Positions 11-7,747 of a DNA stretch of 64,000 bases are shown in pieces (the first letter of the stretch is position 1; every line of letters starts with the position of its first letter). The translations under genes were made by a program, and so were the position numbers. The notes beneath the pieces were generated by a model. That model searched no databases. It worked only from the letters and a program-made list of their open reading frames with translations, and was not told where the DNA came from. Source of the stretch: Actinomycetota bacterium (GTDB lineage: Bacteria; Actinomycetota; Actinomycetes; S36-B12; GCA-2699445); the NCBI GenBank assembly GCA_020438795.1, contig JAGQTY010000011.1, positions 1 through 64,000 of the forward strand. Direction: 5' to 3'.

Positions 11-1741
11 ATGACCACCACCGCTCCCACCCTCACCCCGATGGGCGTGACCGCCGACCACGGCGACGACAAGCCGGTGCTCCTCGCCGTCTCCTACCTG
101 CGTGTCTCCACTCGTGAGCAGGCCGAGCGCGGCGGCACCGAGGAAGGATTCTCCATCCCCGCCCAGCGTGAGGCCAACCAGCGCAAGGCCGACGAACTCG
201 GTGCCAGGGTCGTGCGGGAGTTCATCGATGCTGGTGAGTCAGCACGGTCTGCGGATCGTGACGGGTTGCAGGAGATGCTGGCGTTCATCGCTGCGACCCG
301 CGTCACGTTCTGCATCGTGCACAAGCTCGACCGGCTCGCCCGCAACAGGGCAGACGACGTCGCCATCCACCAAGCACTCCTCACGGCCGGGGTCACCCTC
401 GTCTCCGCTACCGAGTCGATCGATCAGACCCCGTCGGGGATGCTCGTGCACGGCATCATGTCCTCCATCGCCGAGTTCTACTCCCGTAACCTCGCTACCG
501 AAGTCACCAAAGGGCTGACACAGAAAGTCGCGCAAGGGGGCACCCCGATGCGTGCCCCCATCGGCTACTTGAACGTCCGCAAGACGGATGACAACGGGCG
601 TGAGGTGCGCACGGTCGAGGTTGACCCTGAACGCGCACCACTCATCACCTGGGCGTTCGAGCACTACGCGACCGGCGAGACCTCCGTCACCGGCCTCCTC
701 CGCGACCTCACCGCACGGGGTCTGCTGACGGTGCCGACGCCGAAGCGCCCATTGAAGCCATTGGGGAAGAACACCCTCTACAAGCTCCTGACGAACCCGT
801 ACTACGCGGGCGTGATCCGCTACAAGGGCGCGCTGCATCCCGGCGCGCACGAACCGATTGTGGGGCCGGAACTGTTCGACAAAGTGCAATCACTCCTGAA
901 AGCGCGCACGGCGAAGATGACCCGCCACGTCCAGCACGCTCACCACCTCAAAGGACTCCTGCACTGCGGCACCTGCGGGTCACGGATGCTGTTGGATTTC
1001 GCCACCAACCCGCGCGGCACCACCTACGCCTACTTCATCTGCTCCGGCCGCGCCGCGAAGAAGACCAGCTGCACCCGGCGCGCGGTTCCCGTCGCGGTCG
1101 CAGAACGCTTGGTCGCAGATTCCTACGCTTCGATCACAATCAGCGACAGCACCTATCAGCGGCTCGCCGCTGACGTGGATGCGGCGTTCGACAAGCGCAA
1201 CACCGGCCAGGATCGGGAAGTCGCGGACTTGACCGCGAACCGGGCACGCCTGGAAGCAGAGTCCGACAAGCTGCTCGCGGCGCACTTCGCCGACGCCATC
1301 GACCTCGACACCTTGAAGCGGCACCAGGACCGCATCCGCGCGGGTCTGGCGGACATCAACCGTCGCCTCGCGGAGCACAGTGAGCACCACACCGGCGGGC
1401 GCGCGTTCCTCCATGACAGCCTGCGCCTGCTGACCGACGCGCACCGCGCCTACGCGCACTCCGGTGATGCCGATAGGCGATTGGCGAACCAGGCGTTCTA
1501 CACCCGCCTCGACATCACCGACAACGAACAACTCCGGCCACACCTCGCCGAACCCTTCGCCACGATCTTCCGTCAAGCACACGACAGCGGCGACGAAGGC
1601 AAGGAAGCCAAACGGGAACACACCACATCTACCGATGTCGCATGTTCCCGTAAGACACTATGGGTGGAGCTAAGGGGACTCGAACCCCTGACCCCTTGCA
1701 TGCCATGCAAGTGCGCTACCAGCTGCGCCATAGCCCCATGA
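11..1741 (+). CDS. Large serine recombinase (integrase) of an integrated element
   Basis: This 576-aa protein is a large serine integrase that would catalyse site-specific insertion and excision of a mobile element. The N-terminal resolvase fold carries the catalytic serine in YLRVSTREQ (Ser33) and the IVHKLDRLARNR helix. A recombinase domain follows (about 180-300), then a zinc ribbon starting HCGTCGSRM (about 318-365) and a charged coiled coil (about 400-455). The ATG has GGAG six bases upstream. The last 25 or so residues (RGLEPLTPCMPCK onward) are simply the antisense of the adjacent tRNA-Ala, so this tail depends on the integrated state. Most of the element must lie to the left of the window. 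The family call is certain; the element type (phage or ICE) is unknown. Confidence 0.95.
   Translation: MTTTAPTLTPMGVTADHGDDKPVLLAVSYLRVSTREQAERGGTEEGFSIPAQREANQRKADELGARVVREFIDAGESARSADRDGLQEMLAFIAATRVTFCIVHKLDRLARNRADDVAIHQALLTAGVTLVSATESIDQTPSGMLVHGIMSSIAEFYSRNLATEVTKGLTQKVAQGGTPMRAPIGYLNVRKTDDNGREVRTVEVDPERAPLITWAFEHYATGETSVTGLLRDLTARGLLTVPTPKRPLKPLGKNTLYKLLTNPYYAGVIRYKGALHPGAHEPIVGPELFDKVQSLLKARTAKMTRHVQHAHHLKGLLHCGTCGSRMLLDFATNPRGTTYAYFICSGRAAKKTSCTRRAVPVAVAERLVADSYASITISDSTYQRLAADVDAAFDKRNTGQDREVADLTANRARLEAESDKLLAAHFADAIDLDTLKRHQDRIRAGLADINRRLAEHSEHHTGGRAFLHDSLRLLTDAHRAYAHSGDADRRLANQAFYTRLDITDNEQLRPHLAEPFATIFRQAHDSGDEGKEAKREHTTSTDVACSRKTLWVELRGLEPLTPCMPCKCATSCAIAP
1665..1737 (-). tRNA. 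tRNA-Ala (anticodon GGC)
   Basis: On the minus strand the gene folds into a full cloverleaf. The acceptor stem GGGGCTA pairs with TAGCTCC, the anticodon stem is CTTGC/GCAAG with loop ATGGCAT (anticodon GGC), and the T arm contains GGTTCGAGTCC. The discriminator is A and CCA is not encoded. The gene is 73 nt long. The 3' end faces the integrase, whose reading frame runs antisense through the whole tRNA, so this gene is the probable attachment site. Confidence 0.95.
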
Positions 1742-2009: not shown

Positions 2010-3599
2010 ATGGGTCTCCTGGTCGGCAGTGCGCCAGCAAGCTCGGCCGAGCAGACCCCGCAACGGGCAAGGCCGAGATTCTGGCGCGATGCCCTGTGGC
2101 TTCCGAGTGTGGTGGCACTCGTCATCGGTGGATTCATGCTGATGGTGCCACAACCCCACTGGGACGAGGCCGCGTCGGCGTCGGCGGCCACGAGAACGCT
2201 GCCGGAACTGCTGGAGCTGCTCGGCAACCAGGATGCAGTCCACGGGTTGTACTACCTGCTCATGTACGCAATCCTGCAGTTCGGGGGACCGACGCTGCTG
2301 ATCGGTCGTCTCGTCAGCCTGCTGGCGATCGTCTCGACCACGCTCGGCACGACCATGCTGGGGGTGCGGCTCGGTGGCCGTGCCCTCGGTCTCACCTCCG
2401 GGCTTGTGTTCGCATTGTTGCCGGTCTCTTCGCACTTCGCCATGCAGATGCGCTCGCAGGCGCTCACCGCCGCCGTGGTGGTGTGGGCGAGTCTGCTGCT
2501 GCTCCGGCTGCTGGACGATGACCTGATCCACACGCGGATCTGGTGGTTCGGCTACGGCCTGCTGATGCTGGCGGGCGTTTACCTCTCCTTGGTGGTGCTC
2601 GCGGTGGTCGCTGCGCATGTGGTCACAATGGTGATCCTGCGACCACCGCGACCCATCGCGATCCAGATGATGGTGGCTGCTGCATCAGTGTTCGTCCTGG
2701 CCCTACCCCTGGTTCTGCTCGGCAGCAATCAGAGCGAGGTGGTCGGTGGGCTGATCCAGGTTGCGCCGAAGCACTGGCGGACCGTCCTGGAGACATGGAC
2801 CACGATCGATGCTCAGCAGGATCTGGGCTGGTCCCTGGCCCTGAGCCTGGTCCTGTGGCTGAGCCTGATCGTGGGTGCGATCGTGTCGTACCGCAGCCGC
2901 AGGACCGACACAGGATTCGCACGGCGCTATGCGCTGCTGCTGCCGTGGCTGCTGCTGCCGCTGCTGGGCCTCATCGTCGTCTCACAATTCAGCGAGTGGT
3001 ACGCGGTCCGGTTCCTGTTCCTGTGCGCCCCCGCATTCGCCGTGGCGGCAGCCTGTGGCCTCGTGCTGCTACGACCGCGCTGGCTCACGGCTGTTGCGAT
3101 TGTGCTGCTGTTCGTCATGGCCATCCCTGCCTACCGTGTGGACCGGGATGTGCATGCCAAGGCCAACACCGGGGACGTCGCGGCATTCGTTGCTGACGAA
3201 GCCAGAGCCGGGGACGGGGTCGTCTTCCTGCCCGACCGCCGTGCGCGGATGATGGCGCTGTTCCCGCGGGAGTTCGCCGGGCTGCGCCTGGTGGGTGTCA
3301 AGGCGGATCCGATCCGGGCCGCGAACTTCAATGGTCTTCGTGCCAAGGGTCCGCTGTTCGAGAGAAACCTCGGGACCGTCGCCCGGGTCTGGTTCGTCCG
3401 TCTCAAAGCACACGGCAACCAGATGCCGGCCAGCTACCGGCGTGCGCTGAGCAACGCCTCGTACGCGGTGTCCGCTCGCCACTCGCTGTCCGAGGGGACC
3501 GTGGTTGTGCGGTACGACCGGGTGCCGCAGGTGTGTGGCCTGGACCCCGAACTGCTTGCCTACTGGCCGATCCGGGTGGACTGTCCGGCTGAACAGTGA
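2010..3599 (+). CDS. GT39/GT-C-type membrane glycosyltransferase
   Basis: This 529-aa polytopic membrane protein has about ten hydrophobic segments between residues 30 and 375 and a soluble C-terminal domain. The first extracytoplasmic loop carries an Asp-Glu pair in PQPHWDEAA (residues 47-55). That is the hallmark of GT-C fold enzymes of the GT39/ArnT type, which transfer sugars from polyprenyl-phosphate donors outside the membrane. The acceptor cannot be told from sequence. The start is not supported by a clear ribosome binding site; the first Met gives a plausible short cytoplasmic N terminus. The gene stands alone and is followed 20 nt later by a strong hairpin that could terminate it. 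Confidence 0.75.
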   Translation: MGLLVGSAPASSAEQTPQRARPRFWRDALWLPSVVALVIGGFMLMVPQPHWDEAASASAATRTLPELLELLGNQDAVHGLYYLLMYAILQFGGPTLLIGRLVSLLAIVSTTLGTTMLGVRLGGRALGLTSGLVFALLPVSSHFAMQMRSQALTAAVVVWASLLLLRLLDDDLIHTRIWWFGYGLLMLAGVYLSLVVLAVVAAHVVTMVILRPPRPIAIQMMVAAASVFVLALPLVLLGSNQSEVVGGLIQVAPKHWRTVLETWTTIDAQQDLGWSLALSLVLWLSLIVGAIVSYRSRRTDTGFARRYALLLPWLLLPLLGLIVVSQFSEWYAVRFLFLCAPAFAVAAACGLVLLRPRWLTAVAIVLLFVMAIPAYRVDRDVHAKANTGDVAAFVADEARAGDGVVFLPDRRARMMALFPREFAGLRLVGVKADPIRAANFNGLRAKGPLFERNLGTVARVWFVRLKAHGNQMPASYRRALSNASYAVSARHSLSEGTVVVRYDRVPQVCGLDPELLAYWPIRVDCPAEQ

Positions 3600-3619
3600 G
3601 TGGGGGACTCGACGGCGAG

Positions 3620-3651
3620 GGGGTCAGGCACCCGCCTTGATGCCTGACCCC
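3620..3651. terminator. Strong hairpin, probable bidirectional terminator
   Basis: An 11-bp perfect stem (3620-3630 pairs with 3641-3651; arm GGGGTCAGGCA) encloses a 10-nt loop. It lies 20 nt after the glycosyltransferase stop codon, and 7 nt after the stop of the small minus-strand frame at 3659-3772. No T-run is present on either side, which is common for actinobacterial terminators. Confidence 0.7.
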
Positions 3652-3658
3652 AGCTCAC

Positions 3659-3772
3659 TCACCGAGCGGCGACGCTGTGCCGCTGGTCCTGCGTCTGCCG
3701 GCTCTGCGACTGTGTGTCCGACCGGTCCTGGTAGCTCGGAGTTCCCAGATACTGAACGATGTATGCGTACAT
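3659..3772 (-). CDS. Possible 37-aa small protein
   Basis: A minus-strand frame of 37 codons starts with ATG at 3772 and is preceded by a good ribosome binding site, AAGGGGAG, with 6-nt spacing. The peptide begins MYAYIVQYLGTPSYQ, with a short hydrophobic or aromatic start, and then becomes a Gln/Ser/Arg/Asp-rich hydrophilic tail ending SVAAR. It stops just before the hairpin at 3620-3651, so it has a start signal, a frame and a terminator. I recognise no family. It could be a genuine small protein, a leader peptide, or chance. No convincing -10 box was seen upstream. Confidence 0.4.
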   Translation of the reverse strand: MYAYIVQYLGTPSYQDRSDTQSQSRQTQDQRHSVAAR

Positions 3773-3854
3773 GATGTCTCCCCTTCGTCTGTAGCCCTCG
3801 TGGCTCACAACCAGTGCCTGCCCCCGCCGCGGTGGCGGCTAACCGAGCGCCAGA

Positions 3855-3949
3855 GGCGAACCGCTTCGGCAGTTCCGCCGAAACGGTTCGCCAGCCGGAC
3901 CCGGGCGGCAAGAAGCCGCCATGTGCCAGCAGATCCGCAAGCCGGATCT
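3855..3949. promoter_or_regulatory. Cluster of three stem-loops in the intergenic region
   Basis: Three inverted repeats lie in 95 bp. The first is a 16-bp arm pair with one mismatch and a 6-nt loop (3855-3870 with 3877-3892, arm starting GGCGAACCG). The second is a 6-bp stem GGCGGC with an AAGAA loop (3904-3920). The third is a 7-bp stem AGATCCG with a CAAGC loop (3931-3949). They sit between the small minus-strand frame and the diguanylate cyclase promoter at 3976. They could be terminators, a structured leader or an RNA, or protein-binding sites. I could not match them to a known riboswitch. Confidence 0.45.
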
Positions 3950-3975
3950 CGGGGCTGAGGCACCCGATGGCGAGG

Positions 3976-3990
3976 TAGATTGTTCCTGTG
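3976..3990 (+). promoter_or_regulatory. Leaderless promoter of the GGDEF gene
   Basis: The -10 box TAGATT (3976-3981) is followed after 6 nt by the GTG start at 3988. This spacing puts transcription start at or next to the first codon, so the mRNA would be leaderless. No Shine-Dalgarno sequence is present. Confidence 0.6.
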
Positions 3991-5109
3991 AAGGTTGACT
4001 CTGATGGTCGCGCCGGCGAGCGGAAGCGACCCCAGGACGGTCCCGGCCGCCGATCCTGGCTGGCCAGTCTGCGCGCTCCGGAGTCGGAGGAACTGCGGCG
4101 CCGCAAGGATGCCGCATGTCGTGCGGCGCTGCCACTGCTGTCCGTGGGCCTCGGTGCCATCCTGTTGCTGTCCCTGATCTTCCGGCTCACCGGCGACCTG
4201 TCCTTCTGGGCGGTGGTGGCGCTGATGTTCACATTCCTCGCCGGCTGCGGCCTGGTGATCTCGGGCTGGCGGATTCGTGCGGATCAGGGCAGCCTCTCCG
4301 GGTGCCAGCAGCGGACCCTCGCCGTCATCGCGTTGACCGCCGTCTCGCTCATGCTGCAGATGTGGGCCTATGAGTCATTGGTGCAGACCACCTACCTGGA
4401 ACTGCTCCCCGTGGCTGCCAGTGCCACGCTGTTGCGGATGCGTTGGTTCGGCGCAGCACTCGGCATCGTCTGGGCGTGCTGGCTACTGCCGTTCTGGACC
4501 GTGGGAGCGCAGGCCGGCTGGTTCCTGGCGATGCTGGCCGGCACGCTGATCGCCTTCGTCGTGCACCTGATGAGGATCGACGCGATGCGCTCCCTGGCCG
4601 ATGCCCTCGACCTCGCGGAGGCTGCCGCGATCCAGGACGAACTCACAGGGCTGATGAACCGGCGAGGGCTGGCGGTCGTGGGCGATGAGCTTGTGGCCCT
4701 GGCCGCGCGCTCACGCGATCCGGTCGCCTGCACGTTCATCGACGTCGATCATCTGAAGCGGGTCAACGATGAGGTCGGACACGATCGCGGAGATGAACTG
4801 CTTGTCGCGCTGGCCAGCGCACTGCGCGACGTTTTCCGGGAGGCTGACGTCATCGCCAGGCTCGGTGGTGACGAGTTCGCGGTGCTGACCATGGGCGCAG
4901 GGCCTGCGGCCGAAGAGGTCGAGCGCCGCGTCTCGGCTGCGTTGCGCCGTTCGCTGGGGGACCTTGATGTCGACCTCGGGATCTCGGCAGGGCGGGTCAT
5001 CCACATGCCATGGCAGGACGAGGATCTCTCTGCGCTGCTGGACCGCGCGGATCAGGAGATGTACCGACGGCGGCGGATGCGACGCTCAACACTGGACCTC
5101 AGCGACTGA
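3988..5109 (+). CDS. Membrane diguanylate cyclase (GGDEF)
   Basis: This 373-aa protein probably makes c-di-GMP from two GTP at the membrane. About six transmembrane helices occupy residues 45-190 and form a sensor module of no recognised class. The GGDEF domain follows, with DELTGLMNRRGL, FIDVDHLKRVND and the catalytic LGGDEFAVL (GGDEF about 293-297). A READ sequence five residues before GGDEF matches the RxxD inhibitory site, which suggests product feedback. No EAL or HD-GYP phosphodiesterase domain is attached. It is monocistronic with an apparently leaderless start. A second GGDEF protein is encoded at 40510-41436. Confidence 0.9.
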   Translation: MKVDSDGRAGERKRPQDGPGRRSWLASLRAPESEELRRRKDAACRAALPLLSVGLGAILLLSLIFRLTGDLSFWAVVALMFTFLAGCGLVISGWRIRADQGSLSGCQQRTLAVIALTAVSLMLQMWAYESLVQTTYLELLPVAASATLLRMRWFGAALGIVWACWLLPFWTVGAQAGWFLAMLAGTLIAFVVHLMRIDAMRSLADALDLAEAAAIQDELTGLMNRRGLAVVGDELVALAARSRDPVACTFIDVDHLKRVNDEVGHDRGDELLVALASALRDVFREADVIARLGGDEFAVLTMGAGPAAEEVERRVSAALRRSLGDLDVDLGISAGRVIHMPWQDEDLSALLDRADQEMYRRRRMRRSTLDLSD

Positions 5110-5275: not shown

Positions 5276-7747
5276 ATGGCTGAAGACGGTGATCGGGCCG
5301 ACTTCGATGTGGCATCGATCCAGGACAGGTGGCTGCCCGTCTGGGAGGCACTACGGCCCTTCCGGGCTTCGGAGTCCGACGATCAGCGCGAGCGCATGTA
5401 TGTCCTGGACATGTTCCCCTACCCCAGCGGCGACTTGCACATGGGCCACGCCGAGGCGTATGCCCTCGGCGACGTCGTGGCCAGGTACTGGGTCCAGCGG
5501 GGCCGCAATGTGCTGCACCCGATCGGCTGGGATGCCTTCGGGCTGCCCGCGGAGAACGCGGCGATCAAGCGTGGCGTGGACCCGGCGGCTTGGACCTACG
5601 ACAACATCGCGGCGCAGAAGGCGTCCATGAAGCGCTATGCCTGCGCCTTCGACTGGACCCGCACCCTGAACACCTGCGATCCCGACTACTACAAGTGGAA
5701 CCAGTGGATCTTCCTCAAGATGTTCGAACGGGGCCTCGCCTATCGGAAGGCGAGCAGCGTTAACTGGTGCCCCACCGACCAGACGGTGCTCGCCAACGAG
5801 CAGGTGATTCAGGGACTCTGCGAGCGCTGTGACACCCCCGTCACAAAGAAGAAGCTCACACAGTGGTATCTGCGGATCACCGACTACGCTGAACGACTCC
5901 TCGATGACATGGACCAGCTGGAGTCGGGCTGGCCCGAGAAGGTGCTGTCCATGCAGCGCAACTGGATCGGCAAGTCGACCGGGGCCAATGTGGACTTCGT
6001 CATCGAAGGACGCGAGGAACCCGTCACCGTCTACACGACCAGACCCGACACGCTGTTCGGAGCCACATTCTTCGTCGTGGCGGCAGACTCCGACCTCGCG
6101 GCGGAACTCGCAGCGGGCAGTGGTGCCGAAGAAGAGTTCGAGCAGTACCTCGAGCAGGTGAAGCTCACCAGTGAGATCGACCGCCTGGCTACCGACCGTG
6201 AGAAGACCGGGGTGTTCCTGAACCGCTACGCCGTCAACCCGGTCAACGGGGAACGGCTGCCGGTCTGGGCCTCCGACTACGTTCTGGCCGACTACGGCAC
6301 AGGCGCGATCATGGCGGTCCCGGCCCATGACCAGCGTGATCTGGACTTCGCCAAGGCATTCGGCATCCCGGTCCGGGTGGTCGTCGCCTCGGACGAGGAT
6401 CCGGAGCAGACCGGCATGGCAACCGCGGATGACGGCCCCCACGTCAACTCCGGTCCCTTGGACGGGCTCGACAAGGAGGCCGCCATCGCGGCGATCATCG
6501 AGATACTGGCGGAGCGCGGCACCGGCGAGGCGGCAGTCAACTACCGGTTGCGTGACTGGCTCATCTCGCGGCAGCGCTACTGGGGCACGCCGATACCCAT
6601 CATCCACTGTCCTTCCTGCGGCGAGGTCCCGGTCCCGGAGGCCGAATTGCCGGTCGTGCTGCCACCGGCCTCGGGGCTGGATCTGCAGCCCAAAGGTTCT
6701 TCCCCCTTGGGGGCGGCTGCTGCCTGGTCGGCTGTGACGTGCCCCTCCTGTGGCGGCGGGGCTAGCCGTGACCCGGACACCATGGACACATTCGTCGACT
6801 CCTCCTGGTACTTCCTGCGTTACCTCGACCCTGCCAACACCGATGCCCCCTTCAGCCGTGAGGACGCGGAGAAGTGGCTGCCCGTGGATCAGTACGTCGG
6901 GGGCGTCACGCACGCGATCCTGCACCTGCTCTACGCGCGGTTCTTCACCAAGGTGCTGCATGATCTCGGGATGGTCAGCTTCACCGAGCCCTTCACGCGC
7001 CTGCTCAACCAGGGCATGGTCCTGATGGATGGCTCGGCGATGTCGAAGTCGCGGGGCAATCTGGTGAAGCTGTCGGACGAATTGGCCGACCACGGCGTGG
7101 ATGCTGTACGGCTCACCATGGTCTTCGCCGGTCCGCCGGAGGACGATATCGACTGGTCGGAGGTCTCGGCGGCCGGCGCCAAACGATTCCTGGCCCGAGC
7201 CTGGCGACTGTCCCGCGATGTGACCAGCAGCCCCGGCGCCGATCCGGCACAGGGCGACCTCGCAGTTCGGCAGGCCACCCACCGGACGATCGCCGAAGCT
7301 GCCACCGCCGTGGAGCGATTCCGCTTCAACGTCGCCATCGCCAAGGTGATGGAACTGGTGAACGTGCTGCGAAAAGCCATCGATTCCGGGGTAGGCCCAG
7401 CGGATCCGGCGGTCAGGGAGGGCGTCGAGGCGACAGCCATCATCCTGTCCCTGGTGGCTCCCTACACGGCCGAGGACATGTGGGCGAACCTGGGACACAA
7501 TCCGCCGGTCGCCCGGGCGGGCTGGCCGGAGGTGATCGATGATCTCGTCAGGCAGGAGACAGTCACCTGCGTTGTCCAGATCAAGGGCAAGGTGCGGGCG
7601 AGGCTGGAGGTCCCGGCGGACGTGACGCAGGCCGAGCTCGAACGACTCGCCCTGGCCGACGACACGATCGCGCGCCTCGTGGGAGAGGCGCCGCCCCGAC
7701 GCGTGATCGTGCGGGCGCCCAAACTGGTGAACGTCATCCCCGGCTGA
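5276..7747 (+). CDS. leuS: Leucyl-tRNA synthetase
   Basis: LeuS charges tRNA-Leu with leucine in the cytosol. The 823-aa protein has the class Ia signatures: [10 protein letters not shown] (HMGH at 55-58), a CP1 editing domain (about 220-420) with [12 protein letters not shown], a zinc-binding segment ([10 protein letters not shown] and CPSCGGG), and the KMSKS loop, here AMSKS (about 588-592). The ATG at 5276 is chosen because GGAGG lies six bases upstream; a GTG fifteen bases earlier overlaps that site. I found no T-box antiterminator in the 166-bp leader. It stands upstream of a minus-strand gene and looks monocistronic. Confidence 0.97.

Follow-up and report, generated by a model that had tools for sequence, protein, structure and literature searches.

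The interval at 3600-3990 of the window (the whole 64-kb stretch of DNA that was analysed) quite likely carries, on its minus strand, a stand-alone gene encoding a 37-residue protein, with a tandem pair of operators 77-82 bp before its start, a strong ribosome binding site and its own hairpin terminator. The elements that the first-pass annotation had reported here, namely an 11-bp hairpin, a 16-bp imperfect one, two short hairpins and a 37-codon minus-strand frame with a ribosome binding site, were all present. The 11-bp perfect inverted repeat has its arms at 3620-3630 and 3641-3651, the 16-bp repeat with one mismatch at 3855-3870 and 3877-3892, the short hairpins fall at about 3904-3920 and 3931-3949, and the frame runs from an ATG at 3772 to a TGA stop at 3659. 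The features of the region are as follows.

2010-3599, plus strand: membrane-protein gene, convergent with the small gene.
3620..3651, minus strand: 11-bp perfect hairpin, putative terminator, 7 bases 3' of the stop codon.
3659..3772, minus strand: small-protein gene, 37 aa, MYAYIVQYLGTPSYQDRSDTQSQSRQTQDQRHSVAAR, with homologues at six other places, an N-terminal motif and mostly synonymous change.
3778..3783, minus strand: Shine-Dalgarno GGGGAG, 5 bases 5' of the ATG, with GGAG in seven of seven copies.
3805..3823, minus strand: conserved promoter-like block, GGGCAGGCACTGGTTGTGA, which can be aligned across the four operator-bearing copies although its flanks cannot.
3855..3870, minus strand: putative gene-proximal operator, GCCGAAGCGGTTCGCC, one half of a paired motif in four of seven copies, 82 bp from the ATG.
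3877..3892, minus strand: putative gene-distal operator, GGCGAACCGTTTCGGC, 22 bp centre to centre from the proximal site.
3904..3949, strand unassigned: two short hairpins of 6-7 bp, between the operators and the GGDEF gene.
3988-5109, plus strand: GGDEF (c-di-GMP) gene (Pfam GGDEF, E 2e-31), divergent from the small gene.

The view that this spacer is too structured for an ordinary one was borne out for the two long stems and for the minus-strand fold, but did not extend to short stems of 7 bp or more. With at most one mismatch, the 16-bp stem was the single instance in the 64-kb window and did not occur in shuffles, which gave 0-1 perfect 11-bp stems where the window has four, and folding of the minus strand was more stable than that of shuffles (z -4.4), the plus strand being weaker (z -2.2). 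Short stems of at least 6 bp were found four times against 0.7 expected, one of them being part of the 16-bp repeat and another (3665-3684) lying within the reading frame, and those of at least 7 bp showed no excess (1 versus 0.22, P 0.2). No counterpart of the two short hairpins aligned in the paralogue on contig C129 of the same genome (G000), and they probably lie outside the small-gene unit. Elsewhere in the window, a serine-recombinase gene with Resolvase, Recombinase and Zn-ribbon domains (11-1741, plus strand) ends inside a tRNA-Ala (GGC) gene (1661-1738, minus strand), so that its C-terminus is read from the opposite strand of the tRNA gene; the arrangement resembles one border of an element that inserted at the tRNA.

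That the 37-codon frame is a real protein-coding gene of a small family is strongly supported by sequence comparison, because its homologues have a common N-terminus, the changes are biased towards synonymous ones and every copy has a Shine-Dalgarno sequence. A search of 60 relatives recovered the C129 paralogue, from the window's own genome, and one copy in a genome of the same family; when 166 genomes of the order Nanopelagicales were searched with a profile, the set grew to seven (the window, C129, and one each in G006, G007, G004, G025 and G041). Conservation of the peptide in relatives had been set beforehand as one test, and it was answered by these six further members of 34-40 codons. 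They share the N-terminal motif M-x-[GA]-x-[VI]-[VI]-x-[YF]-L-G-[TA]-P, the remainder being variable, and all seven have GGAG 5-7 bases 5' of the ATG; when the same 166 genomes were scanned with a more permissive N-terminal DNA pattern, the seven came back along with unrelated frames, and the GGAG accompanied the seven only. In their first 14 codons the window copy and the C129 paralogue differ by five synonymous and two non-synonymous changes (pS 0.54, pN 0.06), and over the whole frame dS exceeds dN in the G006/G007 and G025/G041 pairs by a factor of only about 2. Third-position changes predominate in the N-terminal codons, and identity at the amino-acid level extends across families of the order.

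The copies are spread patchily, over six of the 166 Nanopelagicales genomes, and the family appears restricted, as far as searched, to some uncultured members of this order. No convincing member beyond the order was found by profile search of 395 genomes of the class. Among 84,980 species scanned for the Shine-Dalgarno sequence plus motif, true members were confined to four Nanopelagicales contigs, two of which are the contigs of G041 and G006, and this places the window in that order of Actinomycetota; the other nine hits either have no family sequence or continue into a long protein of another kind. The protein had no match in Pfam, NCBIfam, PHROGs or PADLOC, and searches of phage, plasmid and viral contigs for the gene returned nothing. 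An AlphaFold2 model was of low confidence (pLDDT 64) and uninformative. The gene resembles the stand-alone small proteins that ribosome profiling revealed in mycobacteria (PMC4633059) in being short, unannotated and independent of a downstream gene; unlike those, it has a strong Shine-Dalgarno sequence in place of a leaderless start, putative operators and a terminator of its own, and conservation limited to Nanopelagicales.

The hairpin at 3620-3651 is the putative terminator of this gene and may also serve the convergent gene at 2010-3599. Similar hairpins follow the stop codon in C129, G006, G007 and G004, that is in five of seven copies including the window, and no comparable one was seen after the stop in G025 and G041. 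Like the intrinsic terminators of high-G+C bacteria it is a strong hairpin directly 3' of a stop codon; unlike them it has no T tract, and its efficiency is thus unproven. Upstream of the gene, a sigma-70 promoter scan found none, and we infer that the core promoter lies in the conserved block at 3805..3823.

Two 16-bp sites separated by a 6-base spacer precede the window, C129, G025 and G041 copies. Given as distal/proximal site, they read GGCGAACCGTTTCGGC/GCCGAAGCGGTTCGCC in the window (ending 82 bp from the ATG), GGCGAAACGTTTCGTC/GCCGAAGCGTTTCGGC in C129 (77 bp), GCCGCATCGTTACGTC/GCCGCATCGTTGCGGC in G025 (80 bp) and GCCGCATCGTTACGGC/GCCGCATCGTTGCGGC in G041 (80 bp). All eight are centred on CG, and each arm is itself palindromic in 5-7 of 8 pairs. 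Both pairwise alignments show the sites as islands of conservation amid flanks that are not conserved. The pattern CGNANCGNTNCGNC-N6-GNCGNANCGNTNCG occurs at four places only in the 166 genomes of the order, all of them before family members, and at two further, unrelated places in the 395-genome class sample; matches in six viral contigs were set aside as chance, their letters being unlike the family's sites. The three g5 copies (G006, G007 and G004) lack the pair, which is therefore not essential to the family.

The imperfect stem is better explained as two putative DNA operators, each bound by a DNA-binding dimer, than as an RNA stem, because its arms are individually CG-centred palindromes, stand at a fixed position and recur singly elsewhere; its capacity to form a hairpin would be a by-product of two palindrome copies. 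It could instead be a stem-loop in a long 5' UTR, riboswitch-like or protein-binding, that controls translation of the small protein, as is suggested by the 15 of 16 pairs between the arms in the window copy, the stable folding of the minus strand (z -2.3 over the 5' region, -4.4 overall) and the constant distance from the start codon. This structured leader is unlikely, since an RNA stem has no need of palindromic arms, the G025 and G041 copies fit direct repeats (14-15 of 16) better than a stem (12-13 of 16), and the same 16-mer stands singly 70-94 bp before other genes. Still less credible is a non-coding RNA gene with an incidental 37-aa frame, to which we assign a very low probability. 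The strong structure, the terminator and the want of a downstream gene would suit it, but it is opposed by the codon-patterned conservation and the Shine-Dalgarno sequence in all copies, and RNA-specific covariation is not needed to account for the stem. For either RNA reading, Rfam at gathering and permissive thresholds gave chance-level matches only, mostly to eukaryotic miRNA families. An attenuator or leader peptide was rejected because the small gene ends in a terminator that faces the convergent gene.

The conserved N-terminus and variable C-terminus would also suit the leader and core of a precursor peptide that is made on the ribosome and then modified or secreted. We consider this improbable, as no modifying or dedicated export gene was recognised beside any copy (by eye, and the neighbours differ), the protein has no cysteine or other typical core, and there is no family hit. 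The suggestion that the operators and hairpins form a regulatory module mainly for the divergent c-di-GMP synthase gene at 3988-5109 has in its favour that the operators sit in the 215-bp divergent intergenic region, and an added effect on that gene is possible. As the main role it is very unlikely, because the pair accompanies the small gene at equal distance in C129, G025 and G041, where no adjacent GGDEF gene was seen. The reading as a small-protein gene was upheld among those first proposed, by its homologues, synonymous change, universal Shine-Dalgarno sequence, promoter-region elements and putative terminator.

Operators of the LacI family are even palindromes of 16-22 nt with a central CG, located 30-140 bp 5' of the start (PMC4052901). 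The paired sites are even, CG-centred palindromes of 16 bp, and in the four copies the proximal site lies 77-82 bp and the distal site 99-104 bp before the ATG. The small gene is thus probably switched by a LacI-type protein on two adjacent operators. These differ from the described LacI-family operators (PMC4052901) in standing in tandem, 22 bp apart, and in being dedicated to a 37-aa gene, no sugar-utilisation operon having been recognised under their control. Above the Pfam cut-off there are six lacI genes in G000, on C201, C127, C168, C212, C88 and C159, while G025 has five and G041 six; each g5 genome, without the operator pair, has one. As the proposed mechanism, a LacI-family-type regulator would bind both 16-bp sites cooperatively, its two dimers occupying one face of the DNA, since 22 bp is about two turns. 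Responding to a small molecule, it would more likely activate than block transcription from this upstream position. The product would act through its conserved 12-residue N-terminal segment, to which a partner protein would bind, and the remainder would be a variable, probably disordered tail.

A LacI regulator often has its own site close to its gene as well. Similar single sites are found near lacI genes on contigs C212 and C168 of G000 and C65 and C143 of G025, and are not unique to these. On C212 the site CCCGAAACGCTTCGGC lies 90 bp before a 68-aa frame directly 5' of lacI, and on C168 the site CCCGAAACGCTTCGGA lies 69 bp before an 87-aa frame; these small frames, of 87 codons at locus L202 (694-1042) and 68 codons at L203 (minus strand, about 3200-3520), have no family matches. 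The sites on C65 and C143 stand 77 and 76 bp before exported-protein genes, and further ones in G025 and G041 (C36, C18, C29 and C465) stand 70-94 bp before genes preceded by a Shine-Dalgarno sequence. The single-site genes examined look exported (signal sequences judged by eye) except for the fatty-acid hydroxylase on C18, and none of the exported-looking ones has a Pfam match above cut-off. Allowing one mismatch, the G025-type site occurs 25-26 times per genome in G025 and G041 against 11 for a control pattern, and 29 against 20 times in G014, which lacks the small gene; the G000 site type shows a small excess in its own genome (30 versus 22). Other CG-centred palindromes near lacI lie about 79-89 bp before exported-protein genes, at about 933 in L226 (G002:C87), 2616 in L207 (G025:C65) and 2774 in L211 (G041:C83), and two exported proteins encoded divergently both start 79 bp from GGTGCACCGGTGCACC. 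These patterns suggest that LacI-type control of exported proteins is a habit of this order; the candidate single-site regulon is a post hoc lead.

The genomic neighbourhoods differ between copies (neighbours were named by eye from sequence, except GGDEF). In the three g5 genomes the small gene adjoins an ABC transporter operon of the oligopeptide type; its neighbours are a glucoamylase-like and a DUF520/YajQ-like gene in C129, the GGDEF and membrane-protein genes in the window, and valS and an AMP-binding-type ligase gene in G025 and G041. The valS-ligase interval measures 620-740 bp, small gene included, in G025 and G041, and about 90 bp in G009 and G014, relatives of G025 from the same genus, where the family member is absent; therefore a gain or loss of the gene within the genus is indicated. 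Between the small gene and the ligase of G025 (L126, contig C74, about 7290-7700, minus strand) we also read by eye a frame with one membrane segment (NATIGIILIVLAVAAVLVYAGVHAVTA...), which has no ordinary start codon 3' of its GGAG and of which G041 lacks about 150 bp; it is possibly a decayed partner gene.

Nanopelagicales is an order of mostly uncultured freshwater actinobacteria, and LacI-type regulators are normally switches of sugar catabolism. The small-protein family described here was previously unnamed and is missing from all four annotation libraries searched. Its patchy distribution, down to its absence from the G009 and G014 interval, makes gain and loss testable, and the operator sequence may serve as bait for fishing out the regulator. 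More tentatively, and with some doubt, an undescribed LacI-type regulon of Nanopelagicales might comprise exported proteins together with the 37-residue protein, under CG-centred operators about 70-100 bp before their starts, and the small protein would then be a trans-acting partner in an envelope or secretion programme.
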